NCBI RefSeq assembly: GCF_033063295.1
Contig: NZ_JAWJZH010000001.1
Coordinates: 2,604,001 to 2,668,000, forward strand
Reading direction: 5' to 3'
Source of the DNA: Nitrosomonas sp. Is35
Lineage (GTDB): Bacteria; Pseudomonadota; Gammaproteobacteria; Burkholderiales; Nitrosomonadaceae
Length of the DNA: 64,000 nucleotides
Shown: piece by piece, positions 48,672 through 58,690 of the stretch
Position numbering within the stretch: position 1 is the first letter of the stretch
Layout of the letters: the number at the start of each line of letters is the position of its first letter
Made by a program: the position numbers and the translations under genes
Notes under the pieces: generated by a model
The model's input: only the letters and a program-made list of their open reading frames with translations
What the model was told of the DNA's origin: nothing
Database searches by the model: none

Positions 48672-51461
48672 ATGGCCCTAGCCTGGAACGAAATCAAAGA
48701 CCGCGCGCTGGCGTTTTCCCGCGAATGGGCCAAAGCGGAATCGGAAGACGCCGACGCCAAACCGTTCTGGATCGAATTTTTCAATGTGTTTGGCATCACC
48801 TCGCGGCGCATCGGCAGCTTTGAGCAGAAAGTCAAAAAACTCGGCGACCGCGACGGCTACATCGACTGGCTGTGGAAAGGCAATCTACTGATCGAGCACA
48901 AATCGCGCGGGCGCGACCTGGATCGCGCTTATCAGCAAGCCATCGACTATTTTCCCGGACTGAAGGAACACGAGCTGCCGCGTTTCGTGCTGGTCAGCGA
49001 CTTCGCGCGCTTCCGCCTGTACGACATGGTGGAAGGCACGCAGACCGAGTTTCTGCTCAAGGAACTGTACAAAAACGTCAAGCTGTTCTGGTTCATCGCC
49101 GGTTACCAGCCGCAAAAAATTTCACCGGAAAGCCCGGTCAACGCCAAGGCGGTGCAGCGCATGGCGAAGCTGCACGACCAATTGAAACAAATCGGTTATG
49201 GCAAGGCCAAGCCGCGCGACTTGGAAGTCTATCTGGTGCGCCTGCTGTTTTGCCTGTTCGCCGAGGACACCGGCATTTTCGAGCGCACCCAGTTCACCGA
49301 ATTCATCAGTCAGCAAACGCGCGAAGACGGCAGCGACCTGGCGCCGCAACTGGCACAACTGTTCGACGTGCTCAACACACCGGAACACGCGCGGCTGAAA
49401 AACCTCGACGACACGCTGGCCCGGTTTCCGTACGTCAACGGGAAACTGTTTGAAGAGCGCCTGCCGTTCGCCAGCTTCGACCGCGACATGCGCGCCGCGC
49501 TGCTGGTTTGCTGCGCGCTCGACTGGAGCGGCATCTCCCCGGCGATTTTCGGCTCGCTGTTCCAGAACATCATGGACGAAACGCCGAACGCGCGGCGCAA
49601 CCTCGGCGCGCATTACACCACCGAGGAAAACATCCTCAAGCTGATCCGCCCGCTGTTTCTCGATGAACTGCACGCCGAATTTGAAAAAATCCGCCAGACT
49701 GTCAAAGGCCGCACGCAAAACCTGCAAGCCTTTCACAGCAAACTCGCCGGTCTCAGATTTTTAGACCCGGCGTGCGGCTGCGGCAATTTCCTGGTGATCG
49801 CGTACCGCGAACTGCGCCGCCTCGAATTGGAGGTATTGCGCACACTCCATGGGGGCGGGCAGTTAGTACTCGATATATCGAATATTGTCCGGGTTAATGT
49901 CGACCAATTCCACGGCATCGAAATCGAAGAATTCCCGGTGCAAATCGCGCAAGTCGCCTTATGGCTCACCGACCACCAGATGAATGCGCAAGTGTCGGAA
50001 GAATTCGGCCAAAACTTCACCCGCCTGCCGCTGACCAAATCCGCGCATATCGTGCACGGCAACGCGCTGCGACTGGATTGGAATGCAGTGATTCCTGCGG
50101 AGCAATGCCATTACGTGATGGGGAATCCGCCGTTCATTGGCAAAACCTATTTAAACGACGAGCAACGCGCCGATGTCGCCGCGATTTTTCACGATACCAA
50201 GAATGCCGGATTGCTTGATTACGTCAGTTGCTGGTACCGCAAAGCTACCGATTATATCGCTGCTCATCCGGCGATCCGGGTGGCATTCGTGTCGACCAAC
50301 TCGATCACGCAAGGCGAACAGACCGGCGTATTGTGGCCGGATTTATTGCGCCGTGGCGTGCATCTGCATTTCGCCCACCGCACCTTTCAATGGACAAGCG
50401 AAGCCAGCGGCAAAGCGGCGGTGCATTGCGTCATCATTGGTTTTGGCTTGCAAGAAGCAGCGCAGAAAACCATTTTTGAGTACGCCGACATTCAAGGTGA
50501 ACCGCATGCCGTAGCGGCCAAAAACATCAATCCCTATTTAGTGGATGCTACCGATGCGGTTCTGGAAAACCGCACCCATCCAATTTGCAATGTACCTGAA
50601 ATGCTTTATGGCAATAAGCCAGTTGATGGAGGCAATCTTCTGTTATCACCAGAAGAAAAAATTGAATTGTTAAGTAAAGAACCTCAAGCAGAAAAATGGC
50701 TACAGCCTCTACTTGGTGCAGAGGAGTTTATCAATGGAAAAACACGTTGGTGCCTGTGGTTGATTAACATTGCTCCCAATGAGTTACGGGGCATGCCTGA
50801 AGTAATGAAACGAGTTGAAGCTGTACGAATTTTTCGACTTAAAAGTACAAAAGCGCAAACCCGGCAACATGCTGCAACAGCGACCTTGTTTGTCGAAAAT
50901 CGCCAACCTGAAAGCAACTATATTCTAGTTCCACGTGTTTCATCTGAGCGCAGATTATTTGTACCAATAGGATTTTTCGATAGTCATACTATCAGCACAG
51001 ATCTGAATAATATGATTCCCAATGCCACCCTCTACCACTTCGGTGTCCTCACTTCCACGATGCACAACGCCTGGATGCGCACCGTATGCGGGCGCTTGAA
51101 AAGCGATTATCGCTATTCCGTTGGGATCGTCTACAACAATTTCCCGTGGCCGGAACCCAGCGATACCCAGCGCCGAACCATCGAAACCGCAGCACGGGCT
51201 GTGCTCAACGCCCGCGCGTTGTTCCCCAATGCCACGCTGGCCGATTTGTACGACCCGCTGGCGATGCCGCCGGAGCTGGTGCGCGCGCATCAGCGGCTGG
51301 ACCGCGCCGTCGACGCCGCATACGGCAAAAAATCATTCGTTTCCGAAGCCGAACGCGTGGCGTTTTTGTTCGAGCGCTACCAAACGATCACCAGCCTGCT
51401 GCCCGCCGCCGCAACCCGGAAACCCGGCAAGAAAACAACGAAGCAACCCGACCTTACCTGA
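48672..51461 (+). CDS. MmeI-like type IIL restriction-modification enzyme
   Basis: A 929-residue single-chain endonuclease-methyltransferase close to MmeI in length and order. The N-terminal nuclease has D65-X9-E75-x-K77 (IDWLWKGNLLIEHKSRG), the same spacing as MmeI's D70-X9-E80-x-K82. A helical linker follows, then an N6-adenine methyltransferase with motif I LDPACGCGNFLVIA near 364 and motif IV NPPF near 485. The target-recognition region (about 640-780) and a C-terminal domain follow. Such enzymes methylate one strand for protection and cut at a distance. The recognition segment (about 50590-51015) is visibly AT-richer than its flanks, a sign of domain exchange. No separate methylase is needed or seen. 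Confidence 0.9.
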   Translation: MALAWNEIKDRALAFSREWAKAESEDADAKPFWIEFFNVFGITSRRIGSFEQKVKKLGDRDGYIDWLWKGNLLIEHKSRGRDLDRAYQQAIDYFPGLKEHELPRFVLVSDFARFRLYDMVEGTQTEFLLKELYKNVKLFWFIAGYQPQKISPESPVNAKAVQRMAKLHDQLKQIGYGKAKPRDLEVYLVRLLFCLFAEDTGIFERTQFTEFISQQTREDGSDLAPQLAQLFDVLNTPEHARLKNLDDTLARFPYVNGKLFEERLPFASFDRDMRAALLVCCALDWSGISPAIFGSLFQNIMDETPNARRNLGAHYTTEENILKLIRPLFLDELHAEFEKIRQTVKGRTQNLQAFHSKLAGLRFLDPACGCGNFLVIAYRELRRLELEVLRTLHGGGQLVLDISNIVRVNVDQFHGIEIEEFPVQIAQVALWLTDHQMNAQVSEEFGQNFTRLPLTKSAHIVHGNALRLDWNAVIPAEQCHYVMGNPPFIGKTYLNDEQRADVAAIFHDTKNAGLLDYVSCWYRKATDYIAAHPAIRVAFVSTNSITQGEQTGVLWPDLLRRGVHLHFAHRTFQWTSEASGKAAVHCVIIGFGLQEAAQKTIFEYADIQGEPHAVAAKNINPYLVDATDAVLENRTHPICNVPEMLYGNKPVDGGNLLLSPEEKIELLSKEPQAEKWLQPLLGAEEFINGKTRWCLWLINIAPNELRGMPEVMKRVEAVRIFRLKSTKAQTRQHAATATLFVENRQPESNYILVPRVSSERRLFVPIGFFDSHTISTDLNNMIPNATLYHFGVLTSTMHNAWMRTVCGRLKSDYRYSVGIVYNNFPWPEPSDTQRRTIETAARAVLNARALFPNATLADLYDPLAMPPELVRAHQRLDRAVDAAYGKKSFVSEAERVAFLFERYQTITSLLPAAATRKPGKKTTKQPDLT

Positions 51462-51637: not shown

Positions 51638-52057
51638 TTATTTTTCCGAAGGATCTGTAATGAATCCGATGCGGGTCATACCAGCCTTGGCGGCAATGCT
51701 CATTATCCGTGCGACATGCTCATAATGCGCCAGTTTGTCCGCACGGATATGCAACTCAGTATTGGGCGCTTGAGCGGCTGTTTCGCCAAAGCGAGGCGCC
51801 AATTGCTCCAATGCCACCGGCTCGCCATTCCAAAAGAAACTCCCTTCTGCCCGGATGGCCAGTTCAACGTGCTCGGGCTGGGTGATATTGGGCGTGCTTT
51901 CGGCCTTTGGTAAATCAATTTTGACGGAATGTGTCAGCAACGGTGCTGTGATAATAAAAATGATCAACAATACCAGCATGACATCGACCAATGGCACCAC
52001 ATTGATTTCCGCCATCGGCGCTTGACGGCCGCTATCATGCATACTACCGAACGCCAT
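51638..52057 (-). CDS. exbD: Biopolymer transport protein ExbD
   Basis: A 139-residue ExbD/TolR protein: one TM helix near residues 19-39 (VVPLVDVMLVLLIIFIITAPL) with the conserved proton-path Asp in VPLVDVMLV, then a periplasmic domain. It works with ExbB and TonB to energise outer-membrane receptors with the proton motive force. Its ATG overlaps the exbB stop by one base (TAATG). It is the last gene of the operon. Confidence 0.93.
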   Translation of the reverse strand: MAFGSMHDSGRQAPMAEINVVPLVDVMLVLLIIFIITAPLLTHSVKIDLPKAESTPNITQPEHVELAIRAEGSFFWNGEPVALEQLAPRFGETAAQAPNTELHIRADKLAHYEHVARIMSIAAKAGMTRIGFITDPSEK

Positions 52058-52830
52058 TATTGCCGCCTCCTTTCATAGGCTGTATCCAGTGTTTCTGCAA
52101 CAACGGATGTGGCGGAGGATTGCGCCGGAGAATTTTTTTCATCGCCATCCCCGACTGTAATCAGGATAAAAAGATCATGCGCAAAAGCTTCCAGGCGCGC
52201 CAGCCAAATGCGATTCCGGCGCACAAAGGCGTTATAGGCAAGCACTGCGGGGATAGCCACCGCCAATCCCAGTGCTGTCATGATCAGCGCTTCTCCGACA
52301 GGGCCGGCCACTTTATCCAATGTGCCCTGCCCCGAAAGCCCGATCTGAATCAAGGCATGATAGATTCCCCAAACTGTACCAAACAAACCGATATAAGGCG
52401 CTGCCGAACCTGCTGTTGCAATCAGCGTGAGCCCATTCTCAACCCGGGTAGCTTCCTGATCGATGCCATTACGCAAAGTGCGCGTCAGGAATTCACTGGT
52501 GCCGCCTGCTGCCGCTAATTTATGCGAACTGTGAATTTTGGAATCAGCCGCGGCATCGATTCCCAGCCTGGCAATCGCTGCGAAAGCATTATTGGGGAGA
52601 TTATCCGGGTCGTTCTTTTTAAACTCGGTACTGACTGCCTGGAGAGAATCAAAGCTCCAGAAATGTTTAATAAATGCTTCGGCGCGGCGCTTGGCCATAT
52701 AGTTGGCGATACTTTTTGTGATAATCAGATACCAGCTCGCTATTGAGAGTAATACCAGTAGCGCCAGCACACTGATACCGACTTCATCAATTTGCGCGAG
52801 AAAGTGAGAAAAACCAAGTCCTGTTTCCAT
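52057..52830 (-). CDS. exbB: Biopolymer transport protein ExbB
   Basis: A 257-residue MotA/TolQ/ExbB proton-channel protein with three TM helices: VLALLVLLSIASWYLIITKS, LIATAGSAAPYIGLFGTVWG and ALGLAVAIPAVLAYNAFVRR. It forms the pentameric inner-membrane channel with ExbD. Its ATG directly follows the tonB stop (TAAATG). The neighbouring tonB and receptor genes mark it as ExbB rather than TolQ. Confidence 0.93.
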   Translation of the reverse strand: METGLGFSHFLAQIDEVGISVLALLVLLSIASWYLIITKSIANYMAKRRAEAFIKHFWSFDSLQAVSTEFKKNDPDNLPNNAFAAIARLGIDAAADSKIHSSHKLAAAGGTSEFLTRTLRNGIDQEATRVENGLTLIATAGSAAPYIGLFGTVWGIYHALIQIGLSGQGTLDKVAGPVGEALIMTALGLAVAIPAVLAYNAFVRRNRIWLARLEAFAHDLFILITVGDGDEKNSPAQSSATSVVAETLDTAYERRRQ

Positions 52831-53523
52831 TTATTCATTTCCTTGCAATACAAAATTAAAAGGTTGTAAGGCGACTGCCCGAACGGGCTGGCCATTGCGC
52901 AGCGATGGATTGCATTGCCAGCTTTTCACCGCGGCCAATGCCGCTGCATCAAGCCGCTGATAGCCGCTGCTATTGATGATACTGATTGTGTCGACGCGCC
53001 CGTTTTCATCCAGCTCCACACGCAGCTCCACCTTACCTTCCTCACCCATGCGGCGGGAAATCGCGGGGTAAACTGGCGCCGTCAATTTTGAGCAGGAAAC
53101 GGACAATTCCGCAGATAGCGCAACGGGGCCAGTTTGCATTGGTGCAGGCGGCGCAACCACGGGGGCAGCGGCTTTAGTTTGTTCTGCTGCCGGAGGCGCC
53201 GGTGACGGCTCGACAGACACATCCTGCTTGGACGTTACCGGTGCTTTCGCGGCAAGACGCTCTTGTTTTGGCTTGACTACTGCGTTTTTTTTGACAGGCT
53301 GAGGCTTGGCAACCGGAGGTTCCGTCACGCTGACCGGGGGCGGCAACGTAATGAGATCGGCAAATAATGCCACCATTTGCTCAGGCGGTGGCGTCAGGCG
53401 CTGATTCCACAAAAAATAAAACAGGCCCGCATGTATTATCAGTACACACAACAATCCTGGTAAGGTAATAGCCCGCTGTTGTGATCCCAGATAGCCAATA
53501 TTGTTTCGCGATAATGATTGCAT
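52831..53523 (-). CDS. tonB: Energy transducer TonB
   Basis: A 230-residue TonB: N-terminal membrane anchor (LPGLLCVLIIHAGLFYFLW), a Pro/Lys/Ala-rich periplasm-spanning region (PPPVSVTEPPVAKPQPVKK), and the C-terminal TonB fold (PAISRRMGEEGKVELRVELD, then VKSWQCNPSLRNGQPVRAVA). The conserved anchor Ser-His is replaced by an IIHAG stretch that keeps the His. Being in one operon with a receptor, it is likely dedicated to it (inference). Confidence 0.93.
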   Translation of the reverse strand: MQSLSRNNIGYLGSQQRAITLPGLLCVLIIHAGLFYFLWNQRLTPPPEQMVALFADLITLPPPVSVTEPPVAKPQPVKKNAVVKPKQERLAAKAPVTSKQDVSVEPSPAPPAAEQTKAAAPVVAPPAPMQTGPVALSAELSVSCSKLTAPVYPAISRRMGEEGKVELRVELDENGRVDTISIINSSGYQRLDAAALAAVKSWQCNPSLRNGQPVRAVALQPFNFVLQGNE

Positions 53524-53546
53524 TGCGAAATTGAAATATCGAAAGA

Positions 53547-54587
53547 TTAAAGACCGGCTTGGGCAACGAGTACGTTAAATTCACCTAACGTAACAATATT
53601 GGCGCCAAATTCACCACCCACCGCAAAGATATGATTATCTTTTATACCGACACAAACGTTGTTTCGATAACAGCGCGCGTAATATCCAAGCGCTATGATT
53701 GATGCCGTTGTGTGTGGAAACAGAGCGGGATAATTGGATTCGGCCCAATTAAATAATTTATCGGCTAGCGCGGTATCGGTATTCGGTTGCAGCACACGTC
53801 CCGCCACGGCTTGTTGAAAATCCGCTAATGGCAAACCGTTATTGAACATGATCCACAGCGAGTCGGAAGGTACAGGGTAAGACTCGGTGACCAACTGTAA
53901 TTCAACCATGTAAGCACCCGCAGGCGCATTCGAAGCACCCCGGTCTGACTCAACAATCCAGTCGAGATGCGTGTGTAAGGAGCCATTGGCACGCACTTCA
54001 CCGACAATGAGTGATGTTGCGCTGCTTACGCCGTGCCGGTTAAATAGCGTAAATCCTTCGACAGTTTTGGGAAGACAGAATACCTGGCCGCAATCTTGAT
54101 TCGGCTGCAAATCCAAACCACCAGCCAAGCGGATTTGTATTCCTTCCGGCGCTAGTGTCCATTGGCGCTTATCGGTACTCCAATAACTCAAGTGTCCGCT
54201 GGCACGGTAGCGCACCCGGTCTCCGGCCGTCATATCGCCAGCAATGCTCTCGAAGCCTGGACTATCAATCGCGGTACGGTCGGGGAAGATGCTGAACTCC
54301 GATACATAAATCGGGGTGCCGGTCAGTTGGTCAATCGGCATCTGCCCGGCGGGTAAACCGAGGGTTTCCGGCTTCACCAAGCTGCATCCTTTTTCTGGGT
54401 TACAAAAGCTGGCTTGTACACGTTCAGCCACAACTTTAACCTCGATATGCTGATGCAATTCACCGGCATTCAGCGTCAGCGGATGCGATAAATACAGTCC
54501 CAGCAAGATGCTAGAGATTACATGGCGTGAATTAGCACCCAGTGCAGGAAGAGAATTTTTGATTACGTTTCTAAATAGATTAGGCAT
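53547..54587 (-). CDS. Secreted protein with paired-Cys C-terminal domain (receptor-downstream)
   Basis: A 346-residue exported protein with an N-terminal hydrophobic segment (VISSILLGLYLSHPLTLNAG). Its body is beta-rich and unrecognised. The last 70 residues (LFNWAESNYPALFPH, GYYARCYRNNVCVGIKD, then GG and a terminal AGL) share a domain with the first gene of the operon. The RCY-N-x-V-CVG Cys pair suggests a disulfide or metal site. Similar WAE...LFP...YY tails occur in other secreted beta-/gamma-proteobacterial proteins. Placed between receptor and tonB, it may handle the imported ligand (inference). Confidence 0.75.
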   Translation of the reverse strand: MPNLFRNVIKNSLPALGANSRHVISSILLGLYLSHPLTLNAGELHQHIEVKVVAERVQASFCNPEKGCSLVKPETLGLPAGQMPIDQLTGTPIYVSEFSIFPDRTAIDSPGFESIAGDMTAGDRVRYRASGHLSYWSTDKRQWTLAPEGIQIRLAGGLDLQPNQDCGQVFCLPKTVEGFTLFNRHGVSSATSLIVGEVRANGSLHTHLDWIVESDRGASNAPAGAYMVELQLVTESYPVPSDSLWIMFNNGLPLADFQQAVAGRVLQPNTDTALADKLFNWAESNYPALFPHTTASIIALGYYARCYRNNVCVGIKDNHIFAVGGEFGANIVTLGEFNVLVAQAGL

Positions 54588-54640
54588 ATCTCAGTGTCAG
54601 TAAAGTTGATTAATCTTGCGTTCAGTGCGATTGAACATGG

Positions 54641-56857
54641 CTAAAATGTGGCACTCATGCCAACTTGCGCGCTAAAACCCGGCTCAGGCGCAAAATTCCG
54701 CAAAAAGGAAGTCGAATTCCTGATGGTCATGTTCGTCATATTCGATAGCTTAGCGAAGAACAGGATTTTTCTATGATCGGACATCTTCCAATCGTAGGAT
54801 AAATCCAAGTCCAGCCGATGGTAGCTTGGTGTTTCGGTTTCCAGAATTCCGGGCCTGTTTTGTTCCAGCGCATGGGTATAACGTAGCCCGCTGCGCCATT
54901 GTGTCCATTGGACTCCTATTTCACCACCGAATCGCAAGGGCGGAAGTCTTGGCACATCGCCAAAGGCATCGTTCTGAAACCAGCCCCGCACATAATCAGA
55001 AAATAGCGTTAAACGGGGTTGGACGGGTATGCCCAAGCGCGGATGAGCGGTAATCTCAGCTTCGTAACCGGCAAAGTTTGCGGTATTAGCCTGATACCCG
55101 AAAACCGGCAAACAATTTCTTAAGTTCGCGCAAGTCAGTTGGAAACGCGGTGGATCAGGTGCGAAATTAAAGAAGAAACCTTGGTTTTCCAGATAGATAA
55201 AGTCTTGTATCGATTTGTAATAACCATTGGTATGAAAGGAAACATGCCTGCCGGTATAGCGTAAACCTAATTCGTAGTGATTGGTTTGCTCAGCGCTGAG
55301 ATTAAGGCGGCCGATTTCATAACTGCGGGTAGCGAAATGCGGCCCTGCTGCAAATAATTCTTGCACATCGGGCGCCCGCTGCGCTCGCTGCCAACTCAAA
55401 TACAATGAAGTTTGCGGCAGGATTTCGTAATTCAAGCTCGCCGCCAGCGAGTAAGTCAGATAATTCAATTCATTGGGCAAGGGCAATGCACCCGAAATGC
55501 CCGCTAATTTAATTTGATCACTCTTCGGCGTGGTGGTTTGATTTTCGATACGTGCGCCCATTTCAAGATTGAGACGATCGGTAATAAAGACCGTTTCAGT
55601 GATGAAGAATCCTAAGGAATCAATAGTGGCGGCCGGGGTGAATGTTTCGATTCCTGCCGCGGCAAAATTGCGATTCTGCCATTGCATGCCAAATGTGCCA
55701 TCGAGCCAGCCTCCGCGCTGATGATTCATTTCTAAGCGCGACTCCCATACTGAATTCTTAAACTGGGTCAGCGATGAACTTCTATCGGTCACACTTTTAT
55801 CATAATCCTTATGATTGTAATCAACGTAGCTCAGTTTTGCCTTGATTCTGGGTAATGCTGGCCAATAGGTTTTCCACAGCCCATCTAAATCATAACGGCG
55901 TTGTGACATATCAATCCGGATGGCTTCTTGCTGCACTCTGCCCGCTTCGGTGTGACCTGGAACGCCGGGTGGAATTCCATAATTTCTGGTCATCTCATGA
56001 TAACTTCCGCCCAAATGGCCATGTTTACCGATCATCGATATGCCGGCCGAGCCGCCCTGACTGCTGGAATGGCTATTTTGGATGACGTTCTTGCTATTGC
56101 TACTCGGATCAACTTGGAATTGTTGCCGGATTGCTGCTTCGTCTAAAGCAGTTCCCGGAATGTGTGTGTTATTGGAAGAGCGCTGAAAATAGTCGACATG
56201 AATCGCAAACATTCCCTTGCCCACATCCAGTGCGAACATCCCGGCCTTATCGGCGGAGTTATGGTCGTAACGGAAATCCATCCGGCCAGCAACGCCTTTC
56301 AGCGGAACCTTTTCCGGTATGCGTTGATGCTTAATATCAACCATACCGCCAATTGCATTGCCGCCATAGCGCAGCGTGGCAGGTCCTCTTAGCACCGTAA
56401 TGCTGTCCGCCAGCATGGTTTCAAAAGCGACCGCAAGATCGGGACTTAAAGCGGAAAGATCATGTGCGCCTATCCCATTTTGCATGATTCTGACGCGCGG
56501 GCCGCTCATGCCACGAATGACCGGTTGACCCACACCCGGCCCATAGGACAGATTGCTGACTCCCAATTCACGCTCCAGTGTTTTACCGAGCGTTTCACCT
56601 GTGCGAATGCGTAATTCCCGGCTCTCCAGCTTTTGGATAGGGTCAGCCGATGTAGAGCTCGCTTCAATGGTCATTGTTTCAAATTTGACCGGCTCTGGCG
56701 GAATAGTAGCACTGGGCTTGGGTTGCACAGGATTCGGCTGATTTTCCGCTGGTGACTTTTTTTGCGCATTCTGATCATCCGCGAAGGCGGGATTCAAAAA
56801 ACAAATCATCAACGCAGGCAAAAAAATACAGCGGAAACCCATATACAAAACCTGCAT
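54641..56857 (-). CDS. ZnuD-like TonB-dependent receptor
   Basis: A 738-residue outer-membrane receptor. Signal peptide (ALMICFLNPAFA), a Pro-rich linker, a plug domain (GVGQPVIRGMSGPRVRIMQN, VLRGPATLRYGGNAIGGMVD) and a 22-strand barrel ending SATF. The plug region, IPEKVPLKGVAGRM and the loop YGIPPGVPGHTEAG recall ZnuD zinc receptors, but ZnuD's long His/Cys-rich loop is missing here, so the metal could differ. The ATG overlaps the previous stop (TAATG). The operon brings its own TonB-ExbB-ExbD. Confidence 0.85.
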   Translation of the reverse strand: MQVLYMGFRCIFLPALMICFLNPAFADDQNAQKKSPAENQPNPVQPKPSATIPPEPVKFETMTIEASSTSADPIQKLESRELRIRTGETLGKTLERELGVSNLSYGPGVGQPVIRGMSGPRVRIMQNGIGAHDLSALSPDLAVAFETMLADSITVLRGPATLRYGGNAIGGMVDIKHQRIPEKVPLKGVAGRMDFRYDHNSADKAGMFALDVGKGMFAIHVDYFQRSSNNTHIPGTALDEAAIRQQFQVDPSSNSKNVIQNSHSSSQGGSAGISMIGKHGHLGGSYHEMTRNYGIPPGVPGHTEAGRVQQEAIRIDMSQRRYDLDGLWKTYWPALPRIKAKLSYVDYNHKDYDKSVTDRSSSLTQFKNSVWESRLEMNHQRGGWLDGTFGMQWQNRNFAAAGIETFTPAATIDSLGFFITETVFITDRLNLEMGARIENQTTTPKSDQIKLAGISGALPLPNELNYLTYSLAASLNYEILPQTSLYLSWQRAQRAPDVQELFAAGPHFATRSYEIGRLNLSAEQTNHYELGLRYTGRHVSFHTNGYYKSIQDFIYLENQGFFFNFAPDPPRFQLTCANLRNCLPVFGYQANTANFAGYEAEITAHPRLGIPVQPRLTLFSDYVRGWFQNDAFGDVPRLPPLRFGGEIGVQWTQWRSGLRYTHALEQNRPGILETETPSYHRLDLDLSYDWKMSDHRKILFFAKLSNMTNMTIRNSTSFLRNFAPEPGFSAQVGMSATF

Positions 56858-57732
56858 TAAAGCCCTGCCGCGTCATAAAAAGTTTCTATCGAACCCTGTT
56901 CAGCGATGTCGCCCAGAATTCCGCCAGCCGTGTAAATCTTGCCGTCTTTGCTGCCCACGCACACGGAATTGTCATAACAGCGGGCATAGTAGCCGAAGAC
57001 AAAACGGCTTTCGGCAGCATGCGGGAATAATTCTTTCATCTCTGCTTCCGCCCAATCAAACAGTGCATCCATGCGCTGGTAATCGTTCAATCGGACTTCC
57101 GGCGGCACTTTCAACGCTTCGGAAAGCGCCAATGGATCGAACTTGGCTTGGGCATTGATATGAAAAACCAATGCAAATGGAACAGAGGGTTTATAGAGTA
57201 TGCGCTCGCCTGATTCATCGACGCCTGCAATACTGATGAAGACCATATAAGCGCCATCATCCGGTAACGATCCGTCCGCTTTCTGGATCTTGAAAATCGC
57301 ATGGGCTTCGAAATTACTCTTGTTCGTTAAACTATCGATGATTCCTTGTAATCCATTCCCTTCTTTATCAGTGACTACGTTATCATCCGCTAAACGGCTG
57401 ATCACGAGTTGCTCGGCAAAGCCTTCTTTCAACCATTGTGATTGCTCACTTGACCATTTCAACAAGGTGCTTTCGGTTTGATAGCCGACTATGCCGCCTT
57501 GGTCAAAACCTAAGCCCGTAAATCCGGAATCTCCCATGCGATAAGGCGTTAATGAATCGGCAAATGAGATGACGAATGCTTTGTGGTCACCCAGCGCCCT
57601 TCCCTGACGCTGGATATCGACTTCAATTTTTCCATCGCGCCATGCAAATGCCATGTTCGGTTCACCTTCATGCGCCATCGCCATGGTGCTGAAAAAAAGT
57701 AAAAGCGATCCCATACAAATAGTTTTAATCAA
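56857..57732 (-). CDS. Secreted protein with paired-Cys C-terminal domain (receptor-upstream)
   Basis: A 291-residue exported protein; signal peptide (LLLFFSTMAMA) with mature N-terminus HEGEPN. The middle is unrecognised (FTGLGFDQGGIVGYQTE, GAYMVFISIAGVDESGE). The C-terminal 70 residues (LFDWAEAEMKELFPH, GYYARCYDNSVCVGSKD) match those of the gene at 53547. The start is a TTG at 57732 with GGAG seven bases away; an ATG at 57714 is an alternative. It is the first gene of the six-gene operon, so it is probably a periplasmic or surface partner of the receptor (inference). Confidence 0.75.
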   Translation of the reverse strand: MIKTICMGSLLLFFSTMAMAHEGEPNMAFAWRDGKIEVDIQRQGRALGDHKAFVISFADSLTPYRMGDSGFTGLGFDQGGIVGYQTESTLLKWSSEQSQWLKEGFAEQLVISRLADDNVVTDKEGNGLQGIIDSLTNKSNFEAHAIFKIQKADGSLPDDGAYMVFISIAGVDESGERILYKPSVPFALVFHINAQAKFDPLALSEALKVPPEVRLNDYQRMDALFDWAEAEMKELFPHAAESRFVFGYYARCYDNSVCVGSKDGKIYTAGGILGDIAEQGSIETFYDAAGL

Positions 57733-57760
57733 AAGATACTCCGGTAATTTTTCAAAAAAG

Positions 57761-57777
57761 GATTCGTAATACGAATC
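57761..57777. promoter_or_regulatory. 17-bp palindrome, candidate metal-regulator operator
   Basis: GATTCGTA-A-TACGAATC, a perfect 8+1+8 dyad, 28 bp before the first start codon of the uptake operon. On the minus strand a TATAGA directly precedes it and could be a -10. The sequence does not match the classical Zur (TGTTATA-type) or Fur boxes. Confidence 0.6.
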
Positions 57778-58274
57778 TATAAAAGCGTTGCTACCCTTGA
57801 GGGAGGAATTCCGATTTCCATAAGAACTCCCAATTGACGTAATTCAGAATTCATTTATTGTTGTCATGCGTTGCAACAAACCTATTTCCTGATAGAGGAG
57901 AACCTTCAAATCAATTCTAGATTGCCACAACTATTGAACCGATTTTATTAAAATAGGAAATGAAGATCAATGCGGCAAAATGCCGCACAGGCCGTACTTA
58001 TCAAGCACGGTGACTGGGCCGGATGAATCAAGACACAATCTCGTAAAGATAAAATAGTGCTCACTTCAGCGTTGGACCGGCTGTTGATGGAAACCGTATT
58101 GCGGTTCGATGCATTAAGAAAGTCCTGACACTACGGCTTCCCTTGGCCCGAAGTTATCAACCAGCCTGATGCCCGCTATTACAATTAGAAAATCCGGTAG
58201 AAAACGATGCAAACCGTTGATAGTGAATACATGGCTGGTACTGATGTCCGCATGGAAGAATGGACAGATAAAAA

Positions 58275-58315: not shown

Positions 58316-58690
58316 CTAGTAGGACGATTGCTTTGGTGCGGGGGCGGGTGTGGATACGGCTTGCTTAAAATGGGTTACAGCATCTGTGGCCGCTTTCTTG
58401 GCTGCTTCGGTATTTCCACCCTTGCCTTCTTTGATCGCGTCATCCAGGCACTTAATACCATCATCGATATGTTTGGGGTCGCTTTTGGAGTTTTTATTAT
58501 TTTTCGCATCAATGGCATGCGCTTTCGCATGCTCGGCATGTTCGGCTACTGCTTTGCCATCAGCCGCAGCGGCCGCAGCTTCAGCGTGCTTTATGGCGTG
58601 CACCAGATGGCTTTCCCCGGCTATTGCACTCAGTGAAAAAAGAATCATGATCATGATGCTGGTAAAAAACAGCCGTGTTTTTACGCTCAT
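58316..58690 (-). CDS. smbP: SmbP-like small metal-binding protein
   Basis: A 124-residue exported protein: signal peptide (IMIMILFSLSAIAG), then helical repeats with regularly placed His (HLVHAIKHAEAAAAAA, AEHAEHAKAHA, KHIDDGIKCL, DAVTHFKQA). It matches the layout of SmbP, the periplasmic four-helix metal-binding protein first described from N. europaea, which binds copper and other divalent metals. The C-terminal region ends with a Pro/Ala tail not typical of SmbP, and one Cys is present. AAAGGAG precedes the ATG. Its neighbour is the TonB-linked metal uptake operon. Confidence 0.85.
   Translation of the reverse strand: MSVKTRLFFTSIMIMILFSLSAIAGESHLVHAIKHAEAAAAAADGKAVAEHAEHAKAHAIDAKNNKNSKSDPKHIDDGIKCLDDAIKEGKGGNTEAAKKAATDAVTHFKQAVSTPAPAPKQSSY

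Follow-up and report, generated by a model that had tools for sequence, protein, structure and literature searches.

The window, by which we mean the whole analysed stretch of 64,000 nucleotides from the 3.3 Mb genome of the ammonia oxidiser Nitrosomonas sp. Is35, contains six minus-strand open reading frames (ORFs) that encode a secreted protein (X1), a ZnuD-type TonB-dependent receptor, a second secreted protein (X2), TonB, and ExbB/TolQ- and ExbD/TolR-type proteins (Table 1). Adjacent genes share one base or are 0-53 bp apart, and the ORF coordinates bear out this six-gene order, which a first-pass annotation made from the sequence by a model had described as a metal-uptake operon. The TonB C-terminal, MotA/ExbB, and ExbD domains of the three energiser proteins all score above the Pfam cut-offs, and X1 and X2 have no match in Pfam or NCBIfam.

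Table 1. Genes and control elements of the operon, with positions in the window
Feature	Position	Strand	Remark
X1, secreted, 291 aa	56857..57732	-	body and Cys-pair end; TTG start
ZnuD-type TonB-dependent receptor, 738 aa	54641..56857	-	PF00593, PF07715
X2, secreted, 346 aa	53547..54587	-	body with HxH and Cys-pair end
TonB, 230 aa	52831..53523	-	PF03544, 87.6 bits
ExbB/TolQ-type protein, 257 aa	52057..52830	-	PF01618, 114.3 bits
ExbD/TolR-type protein, 139 aa	51638..52057	-	PF02472, 114.2 bits
RegR/RegA-like palindrome TGCGGCATTTTGCCGCA	57971..57987	-	upstream of X1
Putative -35 box TTGATC	57965..57970	-	abuts the palindrome
Putative -10 box TAAAAT	57942..57947	-	17 bp spacer
Perfect 17-bp palindrome GATTCGTATTACGAATC	57761..57777	-	operon leader; one exact genome copy

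Among 120 genomes of the family, 18 carry an operon of the window type, 19 carry a second locus with related genes, 7 have both, and G089 has an end fragment only. X1, receptor, and X2 are present in all 18 operon genomes, and this trio is inherited together as a conserved unit; in G103 it is divided between two contigs (L062 and L063), and in L049 and L065 its genes differ in direction. As the 18 operons are related to each other, counts such as 18/18, or 16/16 below, do not represent independent events. The bodies of the secreted proteins were found on 47 stretches that correspond to 46 distinct places, including two Methylobacter and five other gammaproteobacterial places; this count leaves out body matches in G022, G056, and G058 as well as the G089 end fragment. 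Secreted proteins occurring widely without a receptor were not found, as at each of the 46 places the stretch also carries a receptor of the ZnuD-like type. In the class, true body matches were present in 5 of 369 sampled genomes, each with two or more copies; 10 genomes matched, 5 of them via a PEP-CTERM tail only, and these were left out of the count. The operon is present in the named isolates N. aestuarii Nm36, N. marina Nm22 and Nm71, and N. halophila Nm1, and is therefore testable.

The second locus of the Is35 genome (L021, G000:C1:3130000-3147000) encodes a Zur-like regulator (90.5 bits, cut-off 167) and the zinc chaperone ZigA (686.8 bits, cut-off 600) and, divergent to zur/zigA, a ZnuD-like receptor followed by two homologues of the X1/X2 bodies. 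All 19 second loci have the receptor and both body genes, and 17 have a zur-like gene. L021 thus resembles the window operon in its receptor with two body homologues but differs by its Zur box, the adjoining zur and zigA genes, intact zinc ligands, and the absence of the Cys-pair end, and its receptor is not the closest relative of the window receptor. Zur boxes and a zur/zigA neighbourhood in relatives support the metal-related role that had been proposed for the operon.

Promoter and metal site

The palindrome TGCGACANNNTGTCGCA is found upstream of X1 in 18/18 window-type operons, with 10 exact copies, 6 copies with one mismatch, and 2 with two mismatches, the window being among the last two. 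When about 300 control palindromes with shuffled half-sites were searched at two mismatches, they appeared in at most 1/18 operons (mean 0.02). The palindrome itself is absent from all 19 second loci. A TTGnnn -35 box abuts the palindrome in all 18 operons, and the best -10 box is at 17 bp spacing in all 18, with at least four of the six TATAAT positions matched in 17/18 operons versus 20% of control positions. An activator that contacts RNA polymerase would be expected to bind at such a position, immediately upstream of the -35 box. The palindrome fits the RegR consensus GNGRCRTTNNGNCGC printed in the accessible part of PMC5506826; the window copy has 0 mismatches, and the copies of the 18 operons have 0-2. 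Genes for a RegB-like kinase and a RegA-like regulator lie side by side in the genome, and a variant of the site is located 68 bp from the regB-like gene. We infer that a RegA-like protein binds this site and activates the operon.

The Zur box has the opposite distribution. Within three mismatches it is present at 18/19 second loci and in 0/18 operons; the best match within 400 bp upstream of X1 in the window has mismatches at 8 of 18 positions, and one chance-level match lies elsewhere in the window. All three outgroup operons carry a Zur-type box, TGTTATAATATAACA, which is exact in both Methylobacter operons and has one mismatch in G368. We read TGTTATAATATAACA as a Zur box because of its palindromic form, its placement, and the adjoining zur genes; the accessible part of a review describes Zur boxes as palindromes and does not print TGTTATAATATAACA itself. 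A genome scan for TGTTATAATATAACA allowing two mismatches gave 9 places versus 1 for the control, and the sole exact copy was at the zur-zigA locus.

With regard to the receptor, the ZnuD model NF038289 is the best curated match at 307.6 bits, below its cut-off of 950, and the Zur-linked receptor of L021 likewise remains below it (315.2 bits). The best solved relative is ZnuD itself (4rdr, 190 bits), followed by OprC (6fom, 45 bits). The zinc ligands of ZnuD are D99, H100, E340, and H499 (PDB 4rdr; accessible part of PMC4557270), and one offset of 14 maps all four onto the aligned PDB chain. The window receptor has D, L, D, and H at these positions, with Leu-141 in place of H100 and Asp-351 in place of E340. 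In contrast, D, H, E, and H are intact in all 40 other ZnuD-like receptors, comprising 17/17 from outside the Nitrosomonas operon clade and 23/23 distinct ones from the class, which reach down to 28% identity to the window receptor (28 loci minus L197, a wrong ORF in the place of L141, and minus the repeats L195, L196, L221, and L222). Within the operon clade, H100 is lost in 16/16 resolved receptors (15 Leu, 1 Tyr), E340 is exchanged for Asp in 14/17 and H499 for Asn in 1/17, and D99 and H499 are retained in most; the split receptor of G103 is outside the tree and the ligand table, and D99 and H100 are unreadable in L056, which has an in-frame stop. Two other ZnuD-like receptors of the Is35 genome have the full zinc site. 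The third ZnuD-like receptor of the genome (L218; L224 3856-6811), with intact ligands, adjoins a Fur-family-like ORF.

A simple pattern search found no His-rich extracellular clusters in the window receptor. The missing His-rich loop that the first-pass annotation had pointed out is therefore real in this protein, but it is not diagnostic, as by this pattern 14/17 receptors outside the operon clade also lack such clusters. With ZnuD, as described in the accessible part of PMC4557270, the receptor shares the fold family and, in most operon members, D99 and H499; the window operon differs by the replaced H100, the mostly Asp-exchanged E340, the missing His-rich clusters and Zur box, two additional secreted partner genes, and a match to the curated ZnuD model that falls far short of its cut-off.

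The ratio of nonsynonymous to synonymous substitution rates (dN/dS) of the receptor was 0.05-0.12 in five pairs, which indicates purifying selection and argues for a working gene. In the receptor tree, the operon clade joins Methylobacter and G368 with a support of 100/100, and the deeper order is unsure owing to long branches; the operon is a likely candidate for a transfer between ammonia and methane oxidisers. N. halophila (L064), which branches deepest among the operon members of the tree, has the new promoter and a Tyr at position 100 yet still the old Glu-340. It looks like an intermediate, and the promoter may therefore have been the first to change.

The leader palindrome GATTCGTATTACGAATC is a separate element, whose near-matches did not outnumber those of the control in a genome scan. 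A two-base variant of it is present in the closest operon, L049.

The secreted proteins and the energiser genes

The last 76 residues of X1 and X2 are 46% identical (E 3e-19), confirming that both proteins have a common Cys-pair end. Their bodies, in contrast, had been taken to be different, which did not hold in a profile-profile comparison with the shared end removed: the bodies are homologous (probability 96.6%, E 6e-10, score 67.5), with a best score of 23.4 among 50 column-shuffled controls. In addition, the X2 body aligns with probabilities of 100% and 99.8% to the two body proteins of L021, and the X1 body aligns to the same two with 96.7% and 96.5%. X1 and X2 are therefore diverged copies within one protein family. 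An HxH pair is invariant in 27/27 aligned X2-type sequences, whereas 22/26 X1 sequences have lost it and 4/26, including the named Methylobacter protein P0110, keep it. Structure models of X1 and X2 (mean predicted local distance difference test scores of 87.7 and 82.8) have a body rich in beta structure and, after it, a small end made of helix and strand.

This end is a variant of a wider module that four more genes of the genome match (E up to 0.05), on proteins that are otherwise unrelated as judged by eye, and that also occurs in tandem copies on other secreted proteins. As the RCY-N-VC cysteines are, by eye, replaced by tyrosine or phenylalanine in the other module copies, the Cys pair looks operon-specific. 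In some body homologues, a PEP-CTERM-like tail takes the place of the Cys-pair end, which suggests a role of the end in display or anchoring and not in metal capture. The idea that the shared end captures the metal is also difficult to reconcile with its occurrence on other secreted proteins and its absence from the Zur-linked relatives. A predicted protein of 225 aa, P0054, combines an X1-type body with a Cys-pair end of the X2 type, as would result from loss of the intervening receptor gene or from a chimeric assembly.

A described protein that resembles X1 and X2 is ZepA (All3515) of Anabaena, a Zur-regulated secreted zinc protein (PMC10957091). According to the accessible part of that paper, it is secreted as well, and its genes are near genes for a receptor, a COG0523 chaperone, and a FUR-family protein, as is the case with the X1/X2 relatives. 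The likeness lies in secretion and gene neighbourhood, and no named relative came up in the searches. The ZepA motif H-x2-9-H-F/Y-H is present neither in the 231 collected proteins nor in the window proteins, and ZepA ends in a PEP-CTERM domain, whereas X1 and X2 lack this domain and end in the Cys-pair module.

The energiser genes have a different history from the trio. The same genome has a second TonB, ExbB, and ExbD set, to which the window proteins are 67, 84, and 88% identical, respectively; those of the window are therefore probably late joiners, copied from that set. Upstream of X1, in the same direction, lies a gene for the small metal-binding protein SMBP (PF16785, 75.3 bits; 58316-58690, minus strand). 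In 21 other operon stretches, tblastn (E up to 1) found TonB, ExbB, ExbD, and SMBP to be absent beside the trio, except for two ExbD matches, which lie close to the stretch ends in L143 and L049. The operon can thus be called self-contained in this genome but not elsewhere, and a dedicated TonB system is not a general feature, as it is only in the window that the energiser genes join the trio. A plus-strand ORF of 929 aa (48672-51461), located immediately downstream of the operon, resembles by eye a restriction-modification type DNA methyltransferase.

Other genes behind the promoter element

In the Is35 genome, the 17-bp promoter element occurs 21 times forward and 18 times reverse with up to two mismatches, versus 6 and 2 times for the control; being palindromic, its matches register on both strands of the scan. 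A longer form was found with up to one mismatch in 39/41 genomes of the genus and not at all as a reversed control, and this pattern does not match the window's own site, which deviates at more positions. Among the products of the genes downstream of the element (20 regions) are TonB receptors, a CobN-type chelatase, PepSY, thioredoxin-like, and PEP-CTERM proteins. A secreted HTRL...GHGC family recurs behind it (L097, L103, L174, L179, L186, L188, and L191-L193), and the several members that were searched had no Pfam or NCBIfam match; the mature proteins may begin with a His. In L102 (1427-4686), behind a palindrome pair, a PEP-CTERM protein adjoins a MauG-like di-haem enzyme; its match to the copper protein CorA, at 23.5 bits, stays below the cut-off of 27. 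Near a like palindrome in L106 (2064-4859), a HupE/UreJ domain and a TonB receptor are fused in a single ORF of 931 aa.

According to a crude signal-peptide rule, 13/21 secreted first genes encode proteins with a mature N-terminal His versus 12/118 in the background; one protein family dominates this set, the background shares families with it, and one of the 13 positives (L102) seems false by eye. A mature N-terminal His can bind copper in other proteins, and the enrichment hints at a copper role without demonstrating it. We found no description of a regulon with this element in the literature, most subscription papers being outside the search. The RegBA/PrrBA/RegSR redox regulons are similar in that the palindrome fits the RegR consensus and that genes for a RegB-like kinase and a RegA-like regulator, both below their cut-offs, are present; they differ in that no metal-receptor operon is among their targets in the accessible literature.

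Control and cargo

We consider it an even bet that a Zur-controlled zinc operon moved into a RegA-like regulon, that its metal site changed, and that its cargo is now something other than free zinc. The ancestral operon would have been repressed by Zur and would have served zinc. In the Nitrosomonas lineage, the Zur box was lost, and a site of the type used by RegR/RegA activators (of the RegBA two-component system) was gained next to the -35 box, on its upstream side. The receptor changed too: His-100 was lost, and Glu-340 mostly gave way to Asp. A signal linked to redox state or to a metal, and distinct from a shortage of zinc, would then activate the RegA-like protein bound at about -45, so that the receptor and its partners are made. 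X1 and X2, probably on the cell surface, would collect the metal and hand it to the receptor, and TonB energy would draw the metal or a metal complex through, copper being the likeliest. Of this account, the sequences themselves show the homology, the conserved trio, the exchange of boxes, the loss of the ligand, and the purifying selection, and from these we infer the RegA binding, the activation, the surface location, and the substrate. Because the box and the ligands have changed, a signal other than zinc shortage and a cargo other than free zinc are probable; since both the on-switch and the metal site seem altered, zinc is probably no longer the main cargo, and copper is the leading guess.

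Several points weigh against this view. The palindrome is not significant when the window is taken alone, and 13/23 inspected sites in the own genome lie within called ORFs. The RegB- and RegA-like proteins score below the cut-offs of NF033792 (290.6 bits, cut-off 350) and NF033791 (197.4 bits, cut-off 250). The consensus is called degenerate in the literature: PMC5506826 reports no usable motif for another RegA, that of its own organism, and chromatin immunoprecipitation sequencing gave, in the accessible text, no strong PrrA motif. D99, Asp-340, and H499 could still bind zinc, and X2 retains its HxH pair. Finally, the box and ligand changes amount to one or two events on a single branch, and the case for copper is an indirect one.

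It is possible, if somewhat doubtful, that the palindrome is read by an undescribed metal sensor, perhaps for copper, that activates or represses the operon, which would be compatible with either view of the cargo. The company that the element keeps, with TonB receptors, the CobN-type chelatase, PepSY, and the sub-threshold CorA match beside the MauG-like enzyme, favours such a sensor, whereas the fit to the RegR consensus and the site variant close to the regB-like gene speak for the RegA-like protein. We regard it as similarly doubtful that the receptor still serves zinc and differs in its timing only; zinc would then be bound by the ligands that remain and by the X proteins, in a second, redox-timed route. 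Three of the four ligand positions do keep Asp, Asp/Glu, and His in most operon receptors, the HxH pair is invariant in the aligned X2-type sequences, and orthologues of the operon carry Zur boxes; against this stand H100, kept in 40/40 other receptors and lost in 16/16 here, the complete absence of the Zur box from the 18 operons, and the two other receptors with a full site in the same genome. A function of X1 and X2 in surface display or adhesion that involves no metal is very improbable, given a ZnuD-like receptor beside the body genes at each of the 46 places and a zur-like gene at nearly all second loci (17/19).

Returning to the retargeted operon with a RegA-like activator and a cargo other than free zinc, we tentatively suggest, as a more specific and clearly less probable proposal, that ammonia oxidisers rebuilt a Zur-controlled zinc operon into an outer-membrane copper importer that feeds ammonia monooxygenase, with a changed receptor site, copper-capturing X1 and X2, and a place in a redox/copper regulon. 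If this is true, the regulon would be shared with other TonB receptors, the CobN-type chelatase, and CorA-like proteins. We found nothing on this operon in the literature, most subscription papers again being outside the search, and the accessible parts of the literature on copper in ammonia oxidisers and beta-proteobacteria name no such outer-membrane receptor for them (further sources, likewise accessible in part: PMC4064962, PMC4263372, PMC6967387, PMC13003922, PMC6769254, PMC6103462). New is a variant of the ZnuD-type locus with a partner family for which Pfam and NCBIfam hold no model and with changed control and a changed metal site. Here a transporter seems to have been retargeted with its outgroups still at hand for comparison, as operator and ligand changed on one branch and the relatives keep the old state, and the promoter element points to a regulon as well. 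Little is known of how ammonia oxidisers take scarce metals, and copper in particular, across their outer membrane, and the operon is a concrete candidate for it.

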